Part shown: positions 4,033-64,000 of the stretch, in pieces
Layout: each line of letters begins with the position of its first letter
Numbering within the stretch: position 1 is the first letter of the stretch
Source: a virus
Strand: one strand, 5' to 3'
IMG/VR virus record: IMGVR_UViG_3300037042_006682
Span: 62,001 to 126,000 of that record
Length of the DNA: 64,000 nucleotides
Program-made: the position numbers and the translations under genes
The notes under the pieces: model-generated
What the model was told of the DNA's origin: nothing
Databases searched by the model: none
What the model saw: the letters and a program-made list of their open reading frames with translations, nothing else

Positions 4033-4061
4033 CACTTAACCTACCACTGGAGGTTTGTCAA
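4033..4061 (-). promoter_or_regulatory. Early-type promoter upstream of HTH gene
   Basis: TTGACA (4056-4061), 17-nt spacer, TAAGTG (4033-4038). It overlaps the 3' end of the helicase gene. Confidence 0.65.
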
Positions 4062-7000
4062 CGGCCAGGCACCCCTGCGCTTCCTCCCCCGGCAGCGCCA
4101 CCCCCATGCGGCGATAAAATTTGTCGCGCCCCCTTGCCTTGCGCTCGCTCCACGCCACCTTGGGATCCCGCACGTCCACCACCACCGGCGTGGGCTTGCC
4201 CGTGCACTGCCCCGCCCGCCAGGGGCAGTAGTGCGCGCACTTCTCGGGGGCCGGCGTGCACCACCGCCGCACCCGGCCGATCGCCTGCTCCGCATCCCCC
4301 AGGGGGGTCGCCAGCACGATCACGTCCAGGGCGGACACGTCGAGGCCCTCCGCGACGAGCTGGATCGTGCAGAGCAACACGTTCGCGCGCTCCGCCTCCC
4401 GCAGCGCCTCGCGCGTCAGGGTGCGCTTGGCCTCCCCCTCCTCCACGGTGAACCACTGCCCCGTGTAGGGCGCGATGGCCACCGGGAACGGCGGGGGCGC
4501 CACCTCCAGGATCTTGCGCAAGTCCGCCCGGAACGCCCGCAGGTGCTCCAGCCGATGGCTCACAACCATCACCTTGCGCCCCTTGCGCACCGCGATGGCG
4601 ATGTCCTCCGCGATGTGCCGCGTGCGCGCCGCGTCCTCCCCGAGCTGGCTGATCACCTGCGCGCTGTTCATGCGCATCGCGCTCACCCGGTAGTCCCCGC
4701 GCCGGATCCCCGTCAGCTCGCTGTCCGACTGCAGGAGGCGCACCCCGAACGGCATCGACTGGGCCTGCATGGTGTGCAGGATCGGCCCGATGTGGTGGAA
4801 GAACACGGGCTCCGCCCGATCCGCGCGCCGCGGCGTCGCCGAGAGCCCCAGGCGGTACGCCGCCATGAAGCGGTGCGCCACGCTGCTCCACACCTCAGAA
4901 CCAATATGATGACAATTATGAACAACAATACCACCATCAAGAACATAGGATGGATGGCCCGAGACGCTCAAATTGAAGACATCAACGCAATCTCCATCAG
5001 TGCGGAATCCAAGTCGCTCAAAATCCTCTCGTTGCGCAACCGCAACACCAACCACCCTTTCTCCCTCAAAAAACGATCCTTCTTCGCATCGCGGTCCTTC
5101 GTCTTTACTGAGTGAGAATACCCATCCACCTCGATCGCTAGCTTCATCATCGGATGTGCGACGTCTATCTTGTAGCAATTCGGCAACCTGGATGGATTGT
5201 TCTTCGGCCGTGATGTCAGAACAACGAACTCCGCGATCCATCCATCTCCCAGCGCTTCTAGCAACACACGCTGTGGAACAGGCATGTCGCATCCATTCCC
5301 CCCTCGTTTTTTTAACGGCACAAACCCATTCCTCTGTTTGGTCTCCATAACCTTTGCGATCACGCCAAGCATGCGCATAGGGTTCTTGTCGCGCATACGG
5401 AGCGAAGCGCTTTCCCTCAGCGAAGAATCCTTCGCATGTCTTTCTAGCATCATAGAGGAATACACCGTCGAATGATCCAGCATGTAAAGACTGTGTGCTT
5501 TCTGCTGACAAGACACCGAACAAAACCTTCTTTGCCTCCCCATCAGTTTGTTCTCTCCGCAAAAAGCGCAAAAAGGACGACCATTCATAGTCCTCTGTCG
5601 TATCCCCTGTGCCGAACATGTCATCGAGCAGAACTTCCGTCCCTTCCTGACGCTGTTCTCCTTCCCGCAAAACGCACATGTTCCCGGTGTGTTCTTGACT
5701 GCCTTCTCCATGTTCCATCCTCATCCTGGTGCAATCATCAAAACTTACCAGAACGTCTCCACACAACGAACTGGCATGCTTCCATCCATCAACAGTCAAA
5801 AACGGATGGTTCTTGGTACATACAATATCAACACCACACAAAAGGCTAACAACAACACAATCGCTCACACACACGCTCCGCTTAAAAACATGTTCAACAA
5901 CACCTTCCCCAAGAGCATTAAAAACCGTCATCCCAATCACAACATCCCCAATAGCCACCTTGCCATCTGGGGTATCGATCTTCTGCTCAGCGGGAAAGCA
6001 CTCATCTGAAACGAACAGCCCGAACGCCTCGTACAGGGCGCGCGGGTAGCGCTGCGTCTGCACGTCCTTGGCCAGGGACTGGATCATGGCGATCACGAAG
6101 TCCTTGTCACGGTAGTCGCAGGTGTCCTGGCGCACCACGCCGATCCGCGCGGCCGGCAGCACGTCCCGGATGCGGGCCGCCCACTGCTCCAGGAAGAACT
6201 CCTTGTGGACCACCACGAGCGTGGCCCGCCCCAGGCGCCGCGCCAACTCCACGGCCAGGATGGTGTTATGCGTGGGCACGCAATTCCGCGTCAGGTAAAG
6301 GTGGTTCGGCGCATCAACCGCAATGCACGTTGCCAATCCTTTCCCAATGGCCGTCACAGACTCCACCGCACGCCCGACCTTGCGTTGCCAGCCATTGCGA
6401 TAAAACTCCGCCTTCTTGCGTGAAAATCTAAAGGGGCAAATGTCTGCTGGGAGTTTTATGTGTAGTCGAAAGCTATCAAACCATCGCGAGTGCACTCCAT
6501 CCTTTGTGTATCGCGTCTGACGTTTCACCAGTTTGCACGTACCCCCCAGAGAGAAAACAATCCGCTGGACCGCATGGGCGATCTGGTCTGATACCGTAGC
6601 ATACTCAACACTTCCGCCTCCACTTGCATATCCGTCTGTATCAAACAGTCCCTGGAGAAGGGATACCCGTGTTGCGACAGATCCACCTTCGTAAACTGTC
6701 GGAATAAATTTATCGTGTGCGGTCAGCCCGAGCATGCCTAGCTTGCGCATGCGCTTTCTGAACGATCCTTCTTGTTGACCAAATTTGATCGGTGGAGAAA
6801 AGCGATAAACCGCAGTATAGCCAGCACGTTGCTTGAGTGCCATTACACGATTTGGCGGCTCTACTGTCATCATATCTACGATCTCTCTATCGGGTGTGCA
6901 TACAGAGATCCCATTGGTGTTGCAAAAGTGGCCATCCCCAATGAGAACACCGAGCGTGTATGGCTCAAAAATCATTTCGCCATCTACCCCCTCAAGGGGG

Positions 7001-7707
7001 GCCATCGTTGGAAGCCACAGTAAACGCCCAACGCTCGTGCGCAGAGTCTCCCGCGCTAGGTCATGCGTCGAAATCGTAACCGTTGGCGCATCACGCTTAC
7101 GCCGCTTCACCAGCGTCCACAGGTGATCCCCATCACAATCCACGTGCGTTCCATCAGAAAATGCGACGCGGAATAGGTCGCGCTCCCCCTGCGGGAAGAC
7201 ACCCGTCACGCGGTGGAATCCACCATCGGTGCCTGCAGCCTCGTCACCAACACGCACCTCCTCAATGGAAGTCCATCCGCGTCTAAGCAAGACAGGCTCT
7301 CCGTGCGCGAGCGCCTTCCCGCTCCCGCAGCCCGCGCAGAGGATGCCCCCGCCCCAGGGGTGCGCCGTGAGGCGGTGCTCCAGCACGGCCAGGGCCTCCG
7401 CCTGCTGCGCGAAGGGGCCGTCCGCCCGGTAGCGCGAGGCCATGCGCTGCATGGGCTGCCCCATGCTCACCTGGACGATCTCCTCGTTCTGTCCCTTGGC
7501 CGAGGCGCGGTAGAACCCGCGCGGCACCCCGAAGAGCCCCACCTCGGGGCGGTCCCGGTAGAGCATGAGGGGCTTGGGCTGCGCGACCCCCGCCACGTCC
7601 GTGGTCAGGATCGGCTGCACGGTCAGCGCCGTGCGGAGCGCCCGCAGGTTGCCCTCGCTCAGCGCCCCCCGCTCCAGCCACGCCCACCCGTCGATGATCA
7701 CGCGCAT
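4036..7707 (-). CDS. SF2 DNA helicase (UvsW/RAD25-like) with two inteins
   Basis: One open frame of 1223 codons. Removing two inteins leaves a helicase of about 511 residues. Extein motifs: Walker A GCGSGK|T (interrupted by intein 1), motif II DE|CHH (interrupted by intein 2), motif III GLSATPRR, motif V-like VAEGLDVSALD and motif VI QAIGRVRR. A Cys/His cluster (CTPAPEKCAHYCPWRAGQC) lies near the C-terminus. Such enzymes remodel replication and recombination intermediates. The ATG at 7707 has GGAGGG upstream and starts 16 nt after the tRNA-like gene. Extein codons flanking intein 2 are AT-rich compared with the rest, a sign of co-conversion during homing. Confidence 0.9.
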   Translation of the reverse strand: MRVIIDGWAWLERGALSEGNLRALRTALTVQPILTTDVAGVAQPKPLMLYRDRPEVGLFGVPRGFYRASAKGQNEEIVQVSMGQPMQRMASRYRADGPFAQQAEALAVLEHRLTAHPWGGGILCAGCGSGKALAHGEPVLLRRGWTSIEEVRVGDEAAGTDGGFHRVTGVFPQGERDLFRVAFSDGTHVDCDGDHLWTLVKRRKRDAPTVTISTHDLARETLRTSVGRLLWLPTMAPLEGVDGEMIFEPYTLGVLIGDGHFCNTNGISVCTPDREIVDMMTVEPPNRVMALKQRAGYTAVYRFSPPIKFGQQEGSFRKRMRKLGMLGLTAHDKFIPTVYEGGSVATRVSLLQGLFDTDGYASGGGSVEYATVSDQIAHAVQRIVFSLGGTCKLVKRQTRYTKDGVHSRWFDSFRLHIKLPADICPFRFSRKKAEFYRNGWQRKVGRAVESVTAIGKGLATCIAVDAPNHLYLTRNCVPTHNTILAVELARRLGRATLVVVHKEFFLEQWAARIRDVLPAARIGVVRQDTCDYRDKDFVIAMIQSLAKDVQTQRYPRALYEAFGLFVSDECFPAEQKIDTPDGKVAIGDVVIGMTVFNALGEGVVEHVFKRSVCVSDCVVVSLLCGVDIVCTKNHPFLTVDGWKHASSLCGDVLVSFDDCTRMRMEHGEGSQEHTGNMCVLREGEQRQEGTEVLLDDMFGTGDTTEDYEWSSFLRFLRREQTDGEAKKVLFGVLSAESTQSLHAGSFDGVFLYDARKTCEGFFAEGKRFAPYARQEPYAHAWRDRKGYGDQTEEWVCAVKKTRGEWMRHACSTACVARSAGRWMDRGVRCSDITAEEQSIQVAELLQDRRRTSDDEASDRGGWVFSLSKDEGPRCEEGSFFEGERVVGVAVAQREDFERLGFRTDGDCVDVFNLSVSGHPSYVLDGGIVVHNCHHIGSEVWSSVAHRFMAAYRLGLSATPRRADRAEPVFFHHIGPILHTMQAQSMPFGVRLLQSDSELTGIRRGDYRVSAMRMNSAQVISQLGEDAARTRHIAEDIAIAVRKGRKVMVVSHRLEHLRAFRADLRKILEVAPPPFPVAIAPYTGQWFTVEEGEAKRTLTREALREAERANVLLCTIQLVAEGLDVSALDVIVLATPLGDAEQAIGRVRRWCTPAPEKCAHYCPWRAGQCTGKPTPVVVDVRDPKVAWSERKARGRDKFYRRMGVALPGEEAQGCLAVDKPPVVG
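4915..6000 (-). mobile_element. Intein 2 in helicase DExH box
   Basis: 362 residues spliced in between DE and CHH. It begins with Cys (CFPAEQKIDTPDG, block A), has a block B (TKNHPFLTVDGWKHASSL), and ends with block F (DVFNLSVSGHPSYVLDGG) and block G (GIVVHN), with +1 Cys. The middle has no LAGLIDADG motif in the intein frame. It instead covers a separate endonuclease ORF in another frame (4968-5711). Base composition is clearly lower in GC than the exteins. Confidence 0.92.
4968..5711 (-). CDS. Nested Vsr/DUF559-like homing endonuclease, out of frame in intein 2
   Basis: 247 codons from ATG 5711, in a different frame from the host intein. Two Cys4 zinc-finger modules with a CAFCG...FCSMTC / CAFCG...FCSVSC pattern (about residues 12-32 and 48-68) are followed by a Vsr/DUF559-type PD-(D/E)xK-like core near the C-terminus: KIDVAHP, AIEVDGYSH, KDRDAKKDRFL, GWLVLRLRNERIL. 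This resembles the EDxHD endonucleases found with fractured split-intein genes in phages. It is probably the homing enzyme for intein 2. Its motif density shows it is real coding, so the intein frame across it must be an overprint. Confidence 0.85.
   Translation of the reverse strand: MEKAVKNTPGTCAFCGKENSVRKGRKFCSMTCSAQGIRQRTMNGRPFCAFCGENKLMGRQRRFCSVSCQQKAHSLYMLDHSTVYSSMMLERHAKDSSLRESASLRMRDKNPMRMLGVIAKVMETKQRNGFVPLKKRGGNGCDMPVPQRVLLEALGDGWIAEFVVLTSRPKNNPSRLPNCYKIDVAHPMMKLAIEVDGYSHSVKTKDRDAKKDRFLREKGWLVLRLRNERILSDLDSALMEIALMSSI
6265..7314 (-). mobile_element. Intein 1 in helicase Walker A, LAGLIDADG type
   Basis: 350 residues inserted in GCGSGK|T. The N-terminal residue is Ala rather than Cys (ALAHGEPVLLRRGW), block B is CDGDHLWTL, and the C-terminus is CIAVDAPNHLYLTRNC then VPTHN with +1 Thr. 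Two LAGLIDADG-like motifs, LGVLIGDGH and LQGLFDTDGYA, show an in-frame homing endonuclease. An Ala1 intein must use the alternative splicing route in which the +1 residue or block F Cys attacks first. Confidence 0.92.
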
Positions 7708-7722
7708 GGGGTCTTCCCTCCG

Positions 7723-7803
7723 TGAGCCAGGCGGGCCTCGAACCCGCAACCTCCCCCTCACTGGTACCGTGGGGGCGCGCTACCTACTTGGCGCCACTGA
7801 CCC
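7723..7803 (-). tRNA. tRNA-like gene, anticodon ACC, lengthened anticodon stem
   Basis: Folds as a tRNA: acceptor GGGTCAG/CTGGCTC (wobbles), D-stem GCGC/GCGC with GG in the loop, variable AGGTT, and T-arm GCGGG-TTCGAGG-CCCGC. The anticodon arm is long: CCCCCACG pairs with TGAGGGGG (one A.A mismatch and a G.U), giving about 8 steps instead of 5 and a 7-nt loop GTACCAG with U33 and anticodon ACC (Gly). No CCA is encoded. It could be functional, degenerate or a decoy. Confidence 0.6.
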
Positions 7804-7863: not shown

Positions 7864-8244
7864 TCATTTTTTCTTGTTCTTTAGCCTGTTGATCTCGTGA
7901 TCAGTGTTCGCTTTTCGACACAAGGCACACCGACATCCGTGTGTTTTGTATCCCGACAATGTTCCATGTGATTCCTCTAAGTCGAATTTAGGCTTATGGT
8001 GCAATCTGTTGTGGCATGTAACGCATATCACAACACACTTGGCTAACTTCTCTTCGCGTCGTTTTTCCGACCAAGACCACACCTTGTGGTCAACCTTATT
8101 TTCTGGGTTTAAGTGGTGTACTAATAAATTCACCGACGACCCACACCACACACAAACGGGATGTTCTTTCATCCATGCGTCGCGTCTCCTCTTAATCCAT
8201 TCACGTTGGTAATCACGTTGCTTTTGGCATACTCCGTATCCCAC
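7864..8244 (-). CDS. HNH endonuclease, probably free-standing homing enzyme
   Basis: 126 residues. HNH/zinc core: CVWCG, LLVHHLNPENK, then VVICVTCHNRLHH (about residues 31-82). The C-terminal tail has a SHGTLSGYKTHGCRCALC motif seen as a DNA-binding appendage in phage HNH proteins. Base composition is markedly lower in GC than neighbouring genes, pointing to recent transfer. It sits between a tmRNA and a tRNA-like gene, typical territory for homing enzymes. GTG start; SD weak. Confidence 0.88.
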   Translation of the reverse strand: MGYGVCQKQRDYQREWIKRRRDAWMKEHPVCVWCGSSVNLLVHHLNPENKVDHKVWSWSEKRREEKLAKCVVICVTCHNRLHHKPKFDLEESHGTLSGYKTHGCRCALCRKANTDHEINRLKNKKK

Positions 8245-8271
8245 ACAACACCCAATTATCCACTAATCCAG

Positions 8272-8620
8272 TGGAGGACCTGGCGAGAATCGAACTCGCG
8301 TCCAAGCATACATCCTGCACGTCCTCATCCACAGGCTTGGCGGCGTCGATTGTCCGGGGTGCCGCCGCATCGCCCCTGACCAGGTTTCCCGCCGTATCTT
8401 AGATGGAGCTACTGCGAGTCCTCGCGTCCACCGCACCCTACTTAATGACGTCGGTCCATCGCACTCTAGGGGGAGCACAAAGCCGACGGGCCGAGGCTCA
8501 CGCCGCGGCCTGATACTCCTGCTGTTTGGCATTTGTATGGTGGCGCCTCTATACCCTGTGAGCGCCATCAGGGGCCTGCAAACATGCCATCCATGTGCCT
8601 GTCGAAACCATTTCAGGCCC
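8272..8620 (-). ncRNA. ssrA: tmRNA (one-piece)
   Basis: 349 nt. The 5' end GGGCCTG pairs with 3' CAGGTCC, followed by an encoded TCCA end. The conserved 5' segment GAAATGGTTTCGACAGG and the 3' T-arm GAGTTCGATTCTCGCC are diagnostic. The tag frame (8530-8498) reads A-K-Q-Q-E-Y-Q-A-A-A-stop, a normal length and Ala-rich end for ssrA tags. tmRNA rescues stalled ribosomes and tags products for proteolysis. It follows a terminator, so it needs its own promoter, read-through or processing; no clear promoter is visible in the 30 nt upstream. Confidence 0.94.
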
Positions 8621-8628
8621 ACATTCTC

Positions 8629-8648
8629 CTGCGCACGCGCGTGCGCAG
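8629..8648. repeat. Perfect 20-bp GC palindrome upstream of tmRNA
   Basis: CTGCGCACGCGCGTGCGCAG, a member of the dispersed palindrome family, 8 nt before the tmRNA 5' end. Could be a processing signal or protein site. Confidence 0.6.
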
Positions 8649-8650
8649 CC

Positions 8651-8671
8651 AAAAAAGCGCGGGGCCCGCGC
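8651..8671 (-). terminator. Rho-independent terminator after ssDNA-binding gene
   Basis: Minus-strand hairpin GCGCGG-GCC-CCGCGC followed directly by TTTTTT. It ends the transcript of the gp32-like gene and separates it from the tmRNA. Confidence 0.8.
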
Positions 8672-8729
8672 CATGGAGGCCCAGCGGTGAAGGATCCGCC
8701 GGCCCCCTCGGGCCCCGCACAAACACCGC

Positions 8730-9488
8730 CTAGTAGCTCGCGCCCTTGGGCTCATCCCAGGGCTCTTTCCGCTTCGTCGAGGACCGCGCTGCCAGCCGCT
8801 GGAGCTGGTCGAACGTGGGGATCGGGAACTCCTTGTAGTAGTCGTATGGCCCCAGCTCCTTGAGGTGGTCCGGGTTGGCCCCGAGTTCGAGGAGGTAGCG
8901 CTTCACGTCCTGCAGCGCGATGCGCTCCACGAACTGGTGGTCCGAGCCCACGGTCTCGCTCAGCGAGCCCTCGCGGCTCACGTCCCACACGGTCCCCGCG
9001 AGGTCCCCGCCGTTGGCGATGGCCCGCTTGCGGAGGCGCGTCAGCACGCCGGGCTTGTCCTCCGACCCCCGCTTGGCCCCGTAGAGCTTGCGCATGAACT
9101 GGTAGCTCTTGCTGGGGTCCTTGACGCCCTTGTAGGCCGACAAGAGGGCCTTGCCGTTCTCGTACACGACCATGCCCAGGTCGATCACCGTGAACCAGCC
9201 GAAGAAGAGCGGCCAGTTCTTGATCTCGCACAGGGGGCACCCCCGCCCGCCCGCGTTGTTGGGCAGCGCGTTCTTCTCCAGGCAGAGGTAGAGGTCGTGC
9301 TCGTTGTTGATCTTCCAGGTGTCGTGGAAGTACGCGGGGAACGGCATCCCGTCGAGGAAGAGGACCCGCCGCGTCTCCCCGTCCTTCATGTAGAACTTGC
9401 GAAGGCCGAGGTCGCTAGGGTTCTTGTCCTTGCTGTAGTCCTCGGTGCTCTCCCAGCCCGCTTGGGCCCATCCCGTCTGCTGTGTCAT
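8730..9488 (-). CDS. gp32-like single-stranded DNA-binding protein
   Basis: 252 residues. Pattern of phage ssDNA-binding proteins with a built-in zinc site: KFYMKDGETRRVLFLDG, a YLCLEKN strand, GCPLCE (about 83-88), then WFTVIDLG and a KLYGAKRG/LTRLRKRA basic segment. The C-terminal region is charged (RSSTKRKEPWDEPKG). It protects ssDNA during replication. It is transcribed alone from the 9561-9589 promoter to the terminator at 8651-8671, with two palindromes in its leader that may control expression. Confidence 0.8.
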   Translation of the reverse strand: MTQQTGWAQAGWESTEDYSKDKNPSDLGLRKFYMKDGETRRVLFLDGMPFPAYFHDTWKINNEHDLYLCLEKNALPNNAGGRGCPLCEIKNWPLFFGWFTVIDLGMVVYENGKALLSAYKGVKDPSKSYQFMRKLYGAKRGSEDKPGVLTRLRKRAIANGGDLAGTVWDVSREGSLSETVGSDHQFVERIALQDVKRYLLELGANPDHLKELGPYDYYKEFPIPTFDQLQRLAARSSTKRKEPWDEPKGASY

Positions 9489-12285: not shown

Positions 12286-14301
12286 TTACCTCGGCTTATC
12301 GCCAGTGAAGATCAGCTCTACCACGTCATCGAGCGCGCCCTCGCGGAGGTCGGCCCCTACCATCGCGATCGATACCGAGGTCTCGCTCAACATGTGGATC
12401 GTGCTAGTCTTGAGATACTCCTCCAGCTGGCTTAATTCCCCCCGCCGCCGGGGGATCGCGCTCATATTCGTCGTGATCAGCGTCGTACGGCAGTAGGCGC
12501 CCCGGAAGCGCAGCAGATCGTCTAGCAGGCGCTCCTCGGCCCCCTCCTTGTCGCGCACCCCCTTCCCGAGGTCGTCGAGCACGAGCACGTCCACGTCGAG
12601 GATGCGCTCCCAGAGGAGCTTCTCCCCCTCAAAGCCCTTACTCCCGAACTTGATGTCCTTGAGGGCCGCGGCCTCGATGAACAGCCCCGTGTTCCCGCGC
12701 CGGCGCGCCTCCTTGAGGGCGATCACGGCCGCTGAAGTATTGTGACTAATGACGCCGCTTGACCAAAAAAGATGATCCTTGGGAACTACAAAATCATAAA
12801 CGTCTTGTTTTTTAGATTGCACTACGCTCTTAACCTTAAAATACCTAACAGAAGACATCGAAAGCGACTGTAGCGAAGCAAGATCCTTGTTCCCTGGCAC
12901 TATATCAATCAATGAATCCACAACCCTCTTTAGAACAGATACAGAAATCACTCCTCGCTTAGCTGACGAACTAAAAAGACCGTATAGTTTTTCACCCCAA
13001 AAATACCTTAATCCACGCTTTTCAATCCTTGCAATGGCAAAGCCAGCATCTATTAGTATTCTGTCAATTGTATCCTTTTTTACAGGTACAACAGTCATAC
13101 ACACATTGCTGCTTCTGACTTTATCTGCTGCAACACGCAACAGTTCAACTTTGTCCTTTGTTATATCAGAAAACCCTATGTTCTCCTCAAATGCAACTAA
13201 TGCCTCCCCTGAAATATACAGTCTCCAATACTCACGCTTGATACGCGCCCCATTCGTCGCCATTTTCATACATGGTTTTATTGTTGAATTCACACCAAAC
13301 GCCATTAGTACAATTTGCAGATCCCTAACAAGCCTCTGCGACTTGCTGGTGTACTCGACAACACACCCACAAATCGAGCCATCCCCTGAAAAAAGCGAAC
13401 GCATAAAGCTACGCAAAACACTAGACGGAGAAGACAGTAATGAATCACAGATACAAACACTCTCGCTTGTGCCGCATCCCAATGCAGTCATAAACACATT
13501 CAATTTTTTTCCACCACGTATACTCGTATCAATACATCCGCTCTCTTGAACCACATCATGTCCACGACAAAAACCAAGGCTCTCCATAACGCTAACAACG
13601 TGCTCTGTGGCAAGACTGTTAGAATTTGAAAATACATTCTTACAATTTACCACACGACCCTCAGCTATGAACCATCCGAGCATAGACGCCACGTCACAAT
13701 CAATAACGACATCTCGGTCGCCAATGGTAATGCGCATTGGATCGCCATCGCTGACAACGCAACGAGCATCAACAGCAACAAAATCATCCTCACAAAGATC
13801 TCCCATGCGCACCATGGCATCACCACTATCCCGCCATACACGCACACGGTGTTCCTCTGTCGCCGTGACACACAATCCATTGGACAGTTCCATGCAAAGT
13901 GTAGGCTGTATGCCATCCGCATAAACCTGCGTTGCCACAGCATAATGCCCATCCCCCGCATACACAGGCATTTCCACGGGAGAACACGCCAAAATTGGAC
14001 TCGCCAACGATCCAATCCTATGCAACCGCCCATTGGCTACCACGATCTCTCTATCCGAAAGGCACTTCCCCGTGCCGTTCTTCCCGTGCAGCACGAGGCC
14101 CACGCCGCGCGCCAGCATGTCGTCCAGCGCCACGAGGTAGTTGTACAGCTCCATCTTGTGCAGCCCCGCGCTCACCCCGTCGAAGTGCGCGTCGCGATAG
14201 CGCAAGGGGATCCGCATCCGCTCCATGTCCTTGAGGTTCAGCTGCCGGCGCATCCCACTGCGCGCCTCGGCCACCTGCTCCAGGTCCTGCTCGTCAGTCA
14301 T
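12286..14301 (-). CDS. DnaC-like helicase loader with intein
   Basis: 671 codons; the exteins alone are about 229 residues, the usual DnaC/IstB size. The P-loop GKNGTGK|T is split by an intein. After it come a strand VDVLVLDDLGKG (Walker B), RTTLITTN (sensor 1) and ETSVSIAM. It loads the adjacent DnaB-like helicase onto DNA. Start ATG overlaps the upstream stop region. Confidence 0.9.
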   Translation of the reverse strand: MTDEQDLEQVAEARSGMRRQLNLKDMERMRIPLRYRDAHFDGVSAGLHKMELYNYLVALDDMLARGVGLVLHGKNGTGKCLSDREIVVANGRLHRIGSLASPILACSPVEMPVYAGDGHYAVATQVYADGIQPTLCMELSNGLCVTATEEHRVRVWRDSGDAMVRMGDLCEDDFVAVDARCVVSDGDPMRITIGDRDVVIDCDVASMLGWFIAEGRVVNCKNVFSNSNSLATEHVVSVMESLGFCRGHDVVQESGCIDTSIRGGKKLNVFMTALGCGTSESVCICDSLLSSPSSVLRSFMRSLFSGDGSICGCVVEYTSKSQRLVRDLQIVLMAFGVNSTIKPCMKMATNGARIKREYWRLYISGEALVAFEENIGFSDITKDKVELLRVAADKVRSSNVCMTVVPVKKDTIDRILIDAGFAIARIEKRGLRYFWGEKLYGLFSSSAKRGVISVSVLKRVVDSLIDIVPGNKDLASLQSLSMSSVRYFKVKSVVQSKKQDVYDFVVPKDHLFWSSGVISHNTSAAVIALKEARRRGNTGLFIEAAALKDIKFGSKGFEGEKLLWERILDVDVLVLDDLGKGVRDKEGAEERLLDDLLRFRGAYCRTTLITTNMSAIPRRRGELSQLEEYLKTSTIHMLSETSVSIAMVGADLREGALDDVVELIFTGDKPR
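12739..14064 (-). mobile_element. Intein in helicase-loader P-loop, LAGLIDADG type
   Basis: 442 residues, from Cys1 (CLSDREIVVANG) to GVISHN with +1 Thr. Block B is TATEEHRVRVW; LAGLIDADG motifs LGWFIAEGR and RSLFSGDGSI mark an in-frame homing endonuclease. GC is much lower than the exteins, and the first C-extein codons (ACT TCA) share that bias. Appears intact and splice-competent. Confidence 0.93.
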
Positions 14302-14887
14302 GGCGTCCACCGCCCTCCGGGCCGTCCCACTCGTCAAAGTTCTTCTTGCGCTCGCGCGCCTCGTCCTTCGCCGCCCCCTTGCGCGGCGCCCGCAGCGCGG
14401 GGACCTCGCCCCGCAACTGCCAGGCGTCGAAGACGCGCCCCCGCGCAGCATACAGCATATCGATCGTGGGGGGATCCCCCTTGGCCGCGCGGGCCATGGT
14501 CGCCTCGACCACAGCGCGCACGAGGTCCCAGCCGTACTCCTGCACGAGCAGCTTGGCCCAGCGCTTCTGCACGACGGTCCAGGCCGGGGGCTGGTAGTCC
14601 TTCCCGTAGCGCTCCTGCATGGCCCCCCGCCATACGCGCGCTACGTCGCCCGCGTTGCGGGCCCGCGCCGCTGCCGCTGTGGCATCCGCCGCCGCGGTCT
14701 CCACCTGCGCCGCCGTCATGGACTCCGCCCCCTCGAGGGCCCGCGGGGCCCGCCCCTCGGGGCGCTGCGCCCGCATCACCGCCTTCAGGGCCCGTGCCGC
14801 GAGCGACCGCGCCTGCGCCTCAGCCGAGATCGCCTGCAGTTCCGCGAGCCCCGGCCGCCGCCGCGTTGTCGTTGGATTCTGTGTCAT
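14294..14887 (-). CDS. Probable replisome organiser / loader partner
   Basis: 197 residues; Ala/Arg-rich helical N-terminal half, then a compact domain (WTVVQKRWAKLLVQEYGWDLVRAVVEATMARA) and a charged tail. Directly upstream of and overlapping the DnaC-like loader, the place phages often encode an origin-binding or replisome-organiser protein. No motif proves this; the call rests on position. Confidence 0.5.
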   Translation of the reverse strand: MTQNPTTTRRRPGLAELQAISAEAQARSLAARALKAVMRAQRPEGRAPRALEGAESMTAAQVETAAADATAAAARARNAGDVARVWRGAMQERYGKDYQPPAWTVVQKRWAKLLVQEYGWDLVRAVVEATMARAAKGDPPTIDMLYAARGRVFDAWQLRGEVPALRAPRKGAAKDEARERKKNFDEWDGPEGGGRHD

Positions 14888-60451: not shown

Positions 60452-63400
60452 TTAGTACCGCGTGATCTGATTGGGCATCCGTGCGTCACACGGATCGGGG
60501 ATGAAATTCTGCTTATACTTCGCCACCCCCACATGACACTGGAAGTTGCTGATCGATCCCGCCATCGACCGACTCGCCGCCTGCGCATCATTGAAAAACG
60601 TCGGGGTTGCCGACGAGGCCCCGACCAACGTCGTCGTCGTGACGCTCTCGGACATATAGCCATTCTTAAACATCTTCAACGAGGACCCACTGCGCACGAC
60701 CGCGATATGCGTCCACCCAATACCGAGAACCGACGAATTCACGGTCGCCGCCAAGGTCCGCGTAACATCGTACAACATCGCCTGGATGATTTTGCCTGTC
60801 GTCTGGACAATCTGGAACCCATAGTTGTTGCCCCCCATCAAGGCGCATCCCCCCACCACGATCCCATACACCCCTGAACCGGGGGCACTCGTCAAGTGGA
60901 CCCAAAACTCAATCGTGAAGTCCCCCGCCCCCAACGACAGCGGCATCCGAATGGCCGTCTGTGGCACGACCTCTACACCAAACGCCACGACCCACCACGG
61001 CTGGCTCATCGACCCGTTACATTCAATCTTTGGAGACGCTTTTACTGTCGGAGATACCTTGCGCGACCCATGCACCCAATGCTGGCACTCCGCCGTGTAG
61101 GCCCGGCGATACTGATCCACCGTGGTCGGCGGCGTAAAGGCCCCCGTCCACAACGCCTTGCCCACAAAGATCCGCAACTGGTCGGCATACCCCGCCGTCG
61201 TCTCATTCGTCGTCCCATACGCTGCCCACCCCAACGCCACCCAATTTATGAGGGAGTAGTTCGACGCGACGACCTGCGAGCACACGGAAACCCCACCGAC
61301 ATACAGCGTGATCGTCGTTCCCACCCGCACTAACGCGACGTGCTGCCAGACATTCGCGATGCGCGACGTATACGAGGGCACCACGTACTGGACCGATCCG
61401 TTATAGACGGAAAAACAGAAATAACCGCTAGTGTTGGTGTAAATCCGGATCGCCCCATATGTCTCCACCGAACTTAACGGCCAATTACACGAATTCACAA
61501 ACAAATCGAATTCCGTTAAACTGTATGATCCTCTTGTCCAGAAATCGACCGTAAAATCCTGCGTACCAAAGACCGTCCCATTGACCGGCGTCGCGATCCA
61601 CCCCGGTGTCGATAAAACATCATGACTGAATTCAGCCAGTGCAACACGATCATACGGCATCACCTGCGTCGTCCCCGTCAAAAACTCGGGTGACACCGAG
61701 GCAATACTACCGCTATGCACGAAATCCCGCCGATCCGTCGGCGGCGTAAAACTGGTCGTCCACAAGGCCGTCCCCTTCAACACCTCAACACAGGCAATGG
61801 CCCCCAAGATCAACTGCTGTCCCGACGGATTAGCCCCCCCACTATCTCCAATGGTAAAATACCCGGACATGTTGTCCCAATACTCGGTGCTCGATGTCTC
61901 GCTGCCCCCACTAACCCCGTCAATATAGACCGTCGTCGTCGTCCCACTGCGCACGATCGCCGCGTGATGCCAATTACCATCATTAAGCGTCACGCCTGCG
62001 CGGGAGGCCGTAATCGCGTGCTCCGTTGCCCCCGCATTGACCGCCTTCCATCCCAGTTGTGTCGCACTATTGATCGACAGACGGAACGCCACGCTCGTAT
62101 TAGAAAGTGCCACACCACGGTTCAAAAGAATCTTAGGGTACGCCGTCCCCGCATAACGAAACCACAGGTGGATCGTGAAGGGGTCATTGGCTAGGTAATA
62201 CTTGTTCCCCGTACCAGCTTCATAAATGGCTTCAAACTTTGTAAAGTCAAAGGCCGTCTGGACACAGCACGCCCGCGCCCCCGACTGGAAGGCGATCGCA
62301 TACCCCATGCCCCCAAAAGTGCGGTGCATCCGTTGATAGTTGGATGTCCCCCCCGTGCTGATCAGCCCCGCCGGACGCTCCGCCCGCCGGGCCATCGACC
62401 CCCCCGTATTCGTCGCGACCGTCCCGCCCCTGACGGGCATCCCGCGATACTCGGACAAGGTTCCCCCCAAACTACCTGGGAAACTCATCCCATCGGGGCC
62501 AGCATCCACCAGACGAAAGCCCAACCCCACCTCTACACTATTCCCACGCAGGAAGAACTTGACGTTGCTCATCTCCGCGTAGTCCGCCGTGGTCACCGGC
62601 GGCGTAAAGGGCGCCGTCCACCGCGCAGCGGCCGTGAACCGTATGTTCACCATCCTGCCATAATGGAACGCCGCCGACACACTACCCACCGTGAACGGTT
62701 GAGACGAAGACAGGCTCTGCCACGGCGTGGGTTGTGAACTGTATGCCGGTTCCACCCCGTTGACATACAACTTCCCCTGTCCCGCCCCCATCCCACTGCG
62801 CACAAAGGCCACATGCGTCCATTTACGTTGCGGCACCACTCCGGCCACAGAGACGACCGCATCCCCCGTTCCGCACGATAACGCCCCCGTTTTGGTCACC
62901 AGGAAAGAGTAATCGCTCGATCGACTGCAAATCTCGGTAATATATTGACTGGCATTATTCCACTCGCTGAACACCCAGGCATCCAACGTGTAATTCCCGT
63001 ATCCTAGGTTAAACGGCGTGGTGCTACTCGTCTGGGCATACCATGTGGCTTCCAGGTGTTCCAATTGCTCTTCATCATCGACGAACACCACCGAACTGTT
63101 CTTACGCAACATTTTTGTGGGCGGCGCGAAGTCCCCCGCATACAACGCCTGACCAATCGCAATGCGCAAACCAGCAATCTTGCCAAGAAAATAATTAACC
63201 GCTGTATAATATCCAGTAAACTCCGCCGCTAACATCAATGGGGCACTTGTAAATTCCAAGACCGAGGAACCAATGCTAAAGGTCTCTGTCTTCCCATCAA
63301 TGGCAAACAACAGACTGCTACCCACACGACTGATCGCCACATGGTACCATCGAGACAACTCTAGCGTTACCGTACTATCCACAGTCACCGTCGCCCCTGA

Positions 63401-64000
63401 CGCGGTTGAATACAGAAAGGCCAATCGGTAAATCGCCGCTTGTACCTTTAACGCCCAACCCATATACACAGACGCTTCCTGCATCGAAACAATGCACTTG
63501 CCGTATCCAGTGGCCAAAGACACCCAACATTCAATCGTAAAATCCTGTGACGTGATCACCATCTTTGAATACGGATTGTTATAGCGTGTTTTAGCCGTCC
63601 CCGTCGTCACCGTCCACACCCGATCTGGTTTGGCCTTATCAAAGATGTTAACCCCCGATTGAATATAACCAAAATCCTGATCCCCCGGAATTAAAACCTT
63701 GGTATTCGCCGTAACGGTATAGGACGCCTCCGATGGCACGGTAAAACTGGTCCCCGTCCATAGTGCCGCGCCCAGGGTGACGCGAAAATACGACAGAAAC
63801 AAAGAAGCAACATTGTAATAATTCCCACCTATGTAAACATCATACCCATTAAGATTTTTTATACTAACCGTGATCGCCTCATCCGTACCACACTGTACGC
63901 CATCCTGGAACATACGCAGGACATTCCCCGTACGCACCCACGCGACATGATGCCACGCACCATTCTGATTCGAGACAGGCGTCGTCTTTGTCACTGTCGT
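60452..64000 (-). CDS. Multi-LamG-domain tail/adhesin protein, 5' end off window
   Basis: At least 1182 codons, open to the right edge. Six LamG/concanavalin-A-like jelly-roll repeats, each with an F-T-I-x-x-W opening and a W-x-H-x-A-x-x-R-x-G ... G closing: WHHVAWVRTG, WYHVAISRVG, WTHVAFVRSG, WHHAAIVRSG, WQHVALVRVG, WTHIAVVRSG. Ends at NQITRY. Such folds bind glycans or protein surfaces; a receptor-binding fibre or side-tail adhesin is likely. Lower GC than the neighbouring baseplate genes. Confidence 0.85.
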   Translation of the reverse strand, partial: TTVTKTTPVSNQNGAWHHVAWVRTGNVLRMFQDGVQCGTDEAITVSIKNLNGYDVYIGGNYYNVASLFLSYFRVTLGAALWTGTSFTVPSEASYTVTANTKVLIPGDQDFGYIQSGVNIFDKAKPDRVWTVTTGTAKTRYNNPYSKMVITSQDFTIECWVSLATGYGKCIVSMQEASVYMGWALKVQAAIYRLAFLYSTASGATVTVDSTVTLELSRWYHVAISRVGSSLLFAIDGKTETFSIGSSVLEFTSAPLMLAAEFTGYYTAVNYFLGKIAGLRIAIGQALYAGDFAPPTKMLRKNSSVVFVDDEEQLEHLEATWYAQTSSTTPFNLGYGNYTLDAWVFSEWNNASQYITEICSRSSDYSFLVTKTGALSCGTGDAVVSVAGVVPQRKWTHVAFVRSGMGAGQGKLYVNGVEPAYSSQPTPWQSLSSSQPFTVGSVSAAFHYGRMVNIRFTAAARWTAPFTPPVTTADYAEMSNVKFFLRGNSVEVGLGFRLVDAGPDGMSFPGSLGGTLSEYRGMPVRGGTVATNTGGSMARRAERPAGLISTGGTSNYQRMHRTFGGMGYAIAFQSGARACCVQTAFDFTKFEAIYEAGTGNKYYLANDPFTIHLWFRYAGTAYPKILLNRGVALSNTSVAFRLSINSATQLGWKAVNAGATEHAITASRAGVTLNDGNWHHAAIVRSGTTTTVYIDGVSGGSETSSTEYWDNMSGYFTIGDSGGANPSGQQLILGAIACVEVLKGTALWTTSFTPPTDRRDFVHSGSIASVSPEFLTGTTQVMPYDRVALAEFSHDVLSTPGWIATPVNGTVFGTQDFTVDFWTRGSYSLTEFDLFVNSCNWPLSSVETYGAIRIYTNTSGYFCFSVYNGSVQYVVPSYTSRIANVWQHVALVRVGTTITLYVGGVSVCSQVVASNYSLINWVALGWAAYGTTNETTAGYADQLRIFVGKALWTGAFTPPTTVDQYRRAYTAECQHWVHGSRKVSPTVKASPKIECNGSMSQPWWVVAFGVEVVPQTAIRMPLSLGAGDFTIEFWVHLTSAPGSGVYGIVVGGCALMGGNNYGFQIVQTTGKIIQAMLYDVTRTLAATVNSSVLGIGWTHIAVVRSGSSLKMFKNGYMSESVTTTTLVGASSATPTFFNDAQAASRSMAGSISNFQCHVGVAKYKQNFIPDPCDARMPNQITRY

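Follow-up and report, generated by a model that had tools for sequence, protein, structure and literature searches.

The window is a stretch of 64,000 nucleotides of viral DNA, covering positions 62001-126000 of a virus record 161,208 bases long. On its minus strand we found, from upstream to downstream, a gp32-like gene, a terminator, a palindrome, a tmRNA gene, an HNH endonuclease-like gene and a tRNA-like element (Table 1); a helicase gene comes next. The sequence-only reading that preceded this analysis had described a complete phage-encoded tmRNA at 8272-8620; these coordinates are exact, and the strand, which it left unstated, is minus. ARAGORN and the Rfam model RF00023 agree at both ends of the gene. 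The covariance search which that reading had proposed as a check gave 94.4 bits against a gathering cut-off of 47 (E 1.7e-35, model positions 1-374 of 374), far from the low score it had named as grounds for rejection. The value is below the 105-287 bits of the chromosomal tmRNAs listed, and we count this against a working tmRNA. The 8620->8272 gene is the sole copy, with no other tmRNA in the 161,208-base record. It has the one-piece gene order; the 3′ tRNA half does not lie ahead of the 5′ half, as it would in RF04321.

The two tRNA-like ends pair as claimed earlier, with 7 of 7 pairs in the acceptor stem, G3.U70 among them, and 5 of 5 in the T-arm. The open tag frame with an Ala-rich end was likewise borne out: the codons at 8530-8498 are GCC AAA CAG CAG GAG TAT CAG GCC GCG GCG TGA, giving a GCC resume codon, an open frame and an Ala-Ala end. 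The idea in the sequence-only reading that the tag could divert proteolysis or escape host proteases is a conjecture. The -AAA ending is not unusual, as DADMALAAA, ANDDYVLAAA and ANDDIALAAA were also found, so by default one would expect tagged proteins to undergo ordinary ClpXP-type degradation. When 84,980 species genomes were scanned for exact matches to the broad pattern A-[KN]-x-x-[DE]-Y-x-AAA on contigs of at least 3 kb, no bacterial tmRNA carried a tag of this type. The single match to the pattern, in Endobugula, was discarded as a candidate host since the locus is not a tmRNA. A search with two exact tag patterns yielded no viral copies of AKQQEYQAAA beyond the window and a sibling phage described below. 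Among phage isolates there was no full-length DNA relative of the window tmRNA; the short matches were permuted tmRNAs and tRNA genes, not close relatives. The window phage encodes neither SmpB nor SspB, and SmpB was also not found in the sibling, so host SmpB must serve. ARAGORN called no canonical tRNA gene anywhere in the 161,208-base record.

Table 1. Positions of the tmRNA gene, its parts and its neighbors in the window
Feature	Position	Strand	Evidence and remarks
tRNA-like element, 13-nt anticodon loop	7723..7803	minus	sits where the sibling has tRNA-Lys(CTT)
HNH endonuclease-like gene, AT-rich, 126 aa, 27 bp past the tmRNA	7864..8244	minus	tblastn
tmRNA 3′ flank ACTGGATTAGTGGATAAT	8255..8272	minus	homologous to the L187/L189 flank; begins at the probable ancestral A73
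tmRNA gene (ssrA), one-piece form, 349 nt	8272..8620	minus	ARAGORN; Rfam RF00023
Extra TCC, apparent copy of the preceding TCC	8273..8275	minus	3-nt gap against L181 exactly here; relatives CTCC-A-CT
Pseudoknot 4	8339..8376	minus	pairing per sequence, own register; weaker than PK1-3
Pseudoknot 3	8388..8432	minus	covariation; 5 of 7 first-stem pairs double-changed
Pseudoknot 2	8436..8488	minus	covariation; second stem CCCUA/UAGGG becomes CCCUG/CAGGG in the sibling
Helix 5, spans tag end and stop codon	8489..8510	minus	drawn pairing and covariation
Tag reading frame, AKQQEYQAAA and stop	8498..8530	minus	ARAGORN; 33/33 bases same in the sibling
Pseudoknot 1, CCCUG/CAGGG and GGCGCU/GGCGCC	8542..8574	minus	compensatory changes in L187 and L189
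Acceptor stem 5′ strand GGGCCUG (partner 8282-8276, CAGGUCC), with G3.U70	8614..8620	minus	7/7 paired; 3/7 pairs double-changed across four relatives
Perfect 18-bp palindrome TGCGCACGCGCGTGCGCA, just upstream of the tmRNA	8630..8647	minus	identical in the sibling
GC-rich hairpin and T6, terminator of the gp32-like gene	8650..8700	minus	stem letters differ in the sibling, pairing kept
gp32-like single-strand DNA-binding protein gene, upstream	8730..9488	minus	tblastn to RcZahn gp57, 'T4 gp32-like DNA binding domain'

The RNA block lies within a replication module whose proteins are only distantly related to those of RcZahn, DLP_5 and Samunavirus phages. RcZahn has its gp32-like gene directly against the helicase gene and no RNA gene at that point, which implies that the tmRNA/tRNA/HNH block was probably added at the gp32-like/helicase junction. 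RF00023 found nothing above its cut-off in the RcZahn, DLP_5 and Samunavirus genomes. The palindrome between the terminator and the tmRNA 5′ end is a possible operator or leader hairpin. We found no sigma-70-like promoter near the tmRNA, by a consensus that may not be the host's. The tRNA-like element has good acceptor, D and T arms; ARAGORN needs a 6-nt intron to call it and scores it 42.

Other insertions occur in the surrounding genes. The helicase gene (4036-7761) contains two intein-like insertions, at about 6268-7314 and 4903-6010, one with a Pfam LAGLIDADG_3 match and both missing as clean blocks in the sibling. Nested in the second, on the minus strand at 4968-5711 and in a frame different from that of the helicase, is a 247-aa ORF with a DUF559 match (E 8e-12) after zinc-finger-like CxxC motifs; it is an endonuclease-type gene that uses another frame than the intein around it, whose own reading frame is open from end to end. 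A DnaC-like gene (12286-14451) holds a LAGLIDADG intein at about 12743-14064 that is absent from the sibling, which has an apparent insertion of its own in a DnaB-type helicase gene instead. At the far end of the window, 60452-63994 on the minus strand encodes a protein of 1180 aa in which Laminin_G_3 (concanavalin-like lectin) matches occur six times; it is probably a receptor-binding structure.

Relatives of the tmRNA and covariation of its helices

IMG/VR yielded three more tmRNAs of this lineage, all on phage contigs. The sibling phage (contig 3300036985_007703, 168.5 kb) has the same locus and the same tag, and its tmRNA adjoins a gp32-like gene 98% identical to that of the window. For this tmRNA we used the Rfam boundaries (L013 7249->6900, 66.7 bits) and discarded an ARAGORN call with a 29-residue tag and misplaced ends. 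The other two, on contigs 3300036985_005327 (88.6 kb; L187/L181) and 3300037493_005685 (95.5 kb; L189), both have the tag AEPQEYLKAA. All four tags thus follow the pattern QEY--AA.

To assess covariation, we aligned the four RNAs and scored 51 pairs from eight column-aligned helices, or 204 pair cells. Standard pairs fill 96.6% of these cells, and 18 of the 51 pairs (30 cells) are changed on both sides, for a covariation score of 0.487. When the helices were slid by 1-3 columns, 37-43% of cells were paired and 0-3 pairs were double-changed; none of 500 shuffles reached the observed pairing percentage, double-change counts or covariation score. Covariation supports PK1, PK2, PK3, helix 5, the acceptor stem, the T-arm and the inner part of helix 2, with compensatory changes among the relatives in both acceptor stem and T-arm, while the alanine identity pair G3.U70 is invariant in all four. 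For PK4 and some inner stems, every sequence can form the pairs but each in a register of its own; this is weaker than the evidence for PK1-PK3, and we list PK4 against our best explanation. All four pseudoknots can be drawn in the window; a broken pseudoknot region, the other outcome that was to speak against the sequence-only reading, is not what we see. Together with the covariance score, these results uphold its description of a complete tmRNA. The conservation of structure with covariation argues that the window tmRNA is under selection as an RNA.

The tag frame departs from this pattern of change. Between window and sibling, the tag and its stop codon are the same at 33 of 33 bases, whereas identity is 67% over the full length of the RNA and about 50% in PK3/PK4. 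A fully identical stretch as long as the tag frame arose in 0.02% of column shuffles. Since the silent positions are identical as well, peptide selection alone is not demonstrated, and the base identity could instead reflect a constraint, for example on the RNA, or recent exchange.

Origin of the unusual 3′ end

In the window the acceptor strand CAGGUCC is followed by U73 and CCA. The corresponding end is GTCC-A73-CG in the sibling and CTCC-A73-CT in L187 and L189, in each case without CCA. The letters CCA noted by the earlier reading are indeed present at 8274-8272; as a sign of completeness they do not hold, because the relatives end at A73 without them. Encoded CCA was seen in 1 of 18 viral tmRNAs sampled in census loci. 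A discriminator A73 is a usual, though non-defining, feature of tmRNA. All 28 chromosomal tmRNAs whose register was clear have it, as do 21 of 22 viral tmRNAs; the exception is the window, with U73. That U73 is unique among the 50 tmRNAs checked is a second point that we count against a working tmRNA.

Comparison of the downstream DNA suggests how this end was formed. The flanks of L187 (ACTAAATTAATGTACAAT) and L189 (ACTAAAGTAATGGACAAT) match the window flank ACTGGATTAGTGGATAAT at 13 of 18 positions when counted from the final A of the window's CCA, and the BLAST alignment of the window with L181 has a 3-nt gap exactly at the extra TCC. Taken together, the flank match and the position of the gap imply that GTCC-A became GTCC-TCC-A, a 3-bp duplication that gave both U73 and an accidental encoded CCA. 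On these alignments, the window's UCCA most likely derives from the TCC duplication and not from an ancestral encoded CCA, and the A at 8272 is most likely the old discriminator A73, with U as the new one. An assembly error in the short TCC repeat may be an alternative source of the extra bases. We also considered insertion of the HNH gene in place of A73 as the direct cause of U73 and rejected it, since L189, which has no HNH gene, has the same flank from A73. A search within the window for a displaced copy of the sibling flank found nothing past chance (223 of 300 shuffles were as good).

An HNH gene docked behind the tmRNA

The gene directly past the tmRNA differs in composition from its surroundings, with a GC content by codon position of 0.47, 0.38 and 0.50 against 67.7% for the window. 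By tblastn, its product is 38.6% identical over 126 aa to annotated mycobacteriophage HNH endonucleases (E 2e-19); the Pfam HNH model gives E 0.28, under the cut-off. The same gene (78% aa identity over 120 aa) lies behind the tmRNA at a similar distance in L181, and the DNA of the two loci aligns over 705 columns at 70% identity, a span that starts ahead of PK1 and takes in the HNH gene. The L181 phage differs from the window phage in gene content. At the same site in the sibling and in L189, the HNH gene is absent. In Flabslab (Bixzunavirus), tRNA-Thr genes flank a related HNH gene, within a tRNA array that also contains a tmRNA. The docking of the window gene, and its presence or absence at one site, match what free-standing homing endonucleases show at tRNA-type genes, and we infer that it may home; SegB of T-even phages, for instance, promotes amplification of a tRNA segment (PMC13096335). 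No published link between a tmRNA and an HNH gene was found in the open-access literature.

Proposed function and alternative explanations

We consider it likely that the locus encodes a working one-piece tmRNA that takes part in trans-translation during infection, relying on AlaRS, SmpB and proteases of the host, so that ribosomes stay free. Counting for this are the covariation relative to slid and shuffled controls, the full-length RF00023 match, the invariant G3.U70, the 33/33 tag identity with the sibling and the QEY--AA pattern in four tmRNAs. The RNA would be transcribed with the replication module during infection and then processed, and host AlaRS would charge it with alanine via G3.U70. 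Bound by host SmpB, it would enter ribosomes stalled on broken mRNAs and add Ala-AKQQEYQAAA to the unfinished protein, which would probably be degraded by a host ClpXP-type protease, while the ribosome would be released for viral translation. U73 and the encoded CCA from the 3-bp duplication would tune charging without abolishing it. The docked HNH gene product is probably a free-standing homing endonuclease that would aid the spread of the tmRNA segment between phages. That phage tmRNA genes can matter is indicated by mycobacteriophage Wildcat, where the tmRNA shows the highest expression of all lytic genes (PMC7474061).

The RNA could instead act mainly as a competitor, depriving the host tmRNA of SmpB or of stalled ribosomes and so blunting host quality control, or swapping host tags for one that proteases or adaptors of the host read badly. 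A tmRNA-domain-only RNA of phage DS6A inhibits the endogenous tmRNA in E. coli (PMC4131195, PMC11915505), the window tag lacks the AAND--NY start read by E. coli SspB, and the phage has neither SmpB nor SspB of its own. However, a decoy would have no need of a tag frame, helix 5 and pseudoknots, which DS6A does not keep and which are maintained here under covariation, and the -AA tag end is the usual protease signal; we therefore regard competition as improbable. It is also unlikely, in our view, that the gene is a recently crippled copy, poorly charged after the 3′ TCC duplication and heading toward a pseudogene. Such decay would fit the sole departure from A73 among the tmRNAs checked, its origin in a 3-bp duplication and a neighboring tRNA-like element that also looks degenerate, but all remaining helices are intact, and the encoded CCA that was gained could help maturation. 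The discriminator data themselves differ between systems: alanylation of E. coli tRNA-Ala is altered by A73U but still proceeds, whereas U73 abolishes charging of human mitochondrial tRNA-Ala (PMC6451123). The E. coli result speaks against a crippled copy; the mitochondrial one we count against a working tmRNA.

Linkage to the HNH gene raises the question of whether the tmRNA is carried mainly as part of a selfish cassette, because the endonuclease homes to tmRNA flanks, with any translational benefit secondary. The same tmRNA-HNH pair does recur in another phage that differs in gene content, and the DNA of the pair is similar throughout; relatives of the HNH gene lie within Bixzunavirus tRNA arrays that also carry a tmRNA, and SegB amplifies its tRNA segment in T-even phages (PMC13096335). 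Yet two relatives keep an intact tmRNA structure without the HNH gene, and both the activity and the cleavage site of the HNH protein are predictions, with a sub-threshold Pfam score, which leads us to rate this as very improbable. Somewhat less doubtful, and put forward tentatively, is a mobile tmRNA-HNH cassette that passes between phages, in which the endonuclease would cut tmRNA flanks lacking the HNH gene and so spread rescue RNAs with phage-specific tags of the QEY--AA family by homing, one copy having moved to U73.

Comparison with known systems

The statement in the sequence-only reading that a minority of phages have tmRNA genes agrees with the literature, which reports them in 402 of 18,146 phage genomes, or 2.3% (PMC9004378); a 2025 tmRNA database holds 79 unique phage sequences (PMC11915505). 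Phage tmRNAs are thus already known, and lists of them go back two decades; what sets this member apart is its tag, the duplication behind U73 and the HNH gene linked to it. The present group offers four comparable members, strong covariation, a tag absent from the scanned bacterial genomes, a natural A73-to-U73 change and an endonuclease neighbor that is present or absent. This makes it possible to test whether phage tmRNAs tag proteins for degradation or compete with those of the host, and whether homing endonucleases spread them.

In the course of this work we observed permuted tmRNAs in other phages. Pseudomonas phage PA_L9 has an unannotated permuted two-piece tmRNA (PP869205.1 80285-80669; L180 1086-1470) with 115.7 bits to RF04321, 101 bits to beta_tmRNA and the ARAGORN tag ANDTSFDVRLAA; the tmRNA of its host, P. 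aeruginosa, is one-piece. Unannotated permuted tmRNAs also occur in Xanthomonas phage X1 (OQ427096.1; L017 776-1104; RF04321 76.6 bits) and Tunturiibacter phage Tunturi_5 (PP885688.1; L018 766-1062; RF04321 86.4 bits), and no SmpB was found in either of these two genomes. A permuted viral tmRNA at L188 2587-3007 (IMGVR_UViG_3300035670_000766) encodes the tag ANDQEYRIAA, with QEY--AA as in the window group despite its other gene form.

The window gene resembles the one-piece tmRNAs of RF00023 in its full-length match, G3.U70, GCC resume codon, PK1-PK4, helix 5 and AA tag end; it differs in having U73, a tag without an AND start and a phage carrier without SmpB. With Melnitz-type marine phages, whose tmRNAs are permuted two-piece RNAs of RF04321, it shares a phage-encoded tmRNA of an origin not obvious from the host, but it is one-piece and unpermuted. 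Mycobacteriophage DS6A likewise encodes a tRNA-like domain, in its case as a TLD-only RNA, whereas the window RNA has a conserved message part and pseudoknots. As in SegB and other free-standing homing endonucleases, a small endonuclease-type gene lies by a tRNA-type gene and is present or absent at one site; unlike SegB, it is of the HNH and not the GIY-YIG type, it stands beside a tmRNA, and its activity is predicted. The Bixzunavirus (C1) mycobacteriophages and Wildcat also carry a complete tmRNA in a large phage genome, and the C1 phages have a related HNH gene in the same tRNA/tmRNA region. The C1 phages differ in their tag, in having about 30 tRNA genes around the tmRNA where ARAGORN finds none in the window phage, and in the position of the HNH gene, which is 2.3 kb off there and adjacent to the tmRNA in the window.
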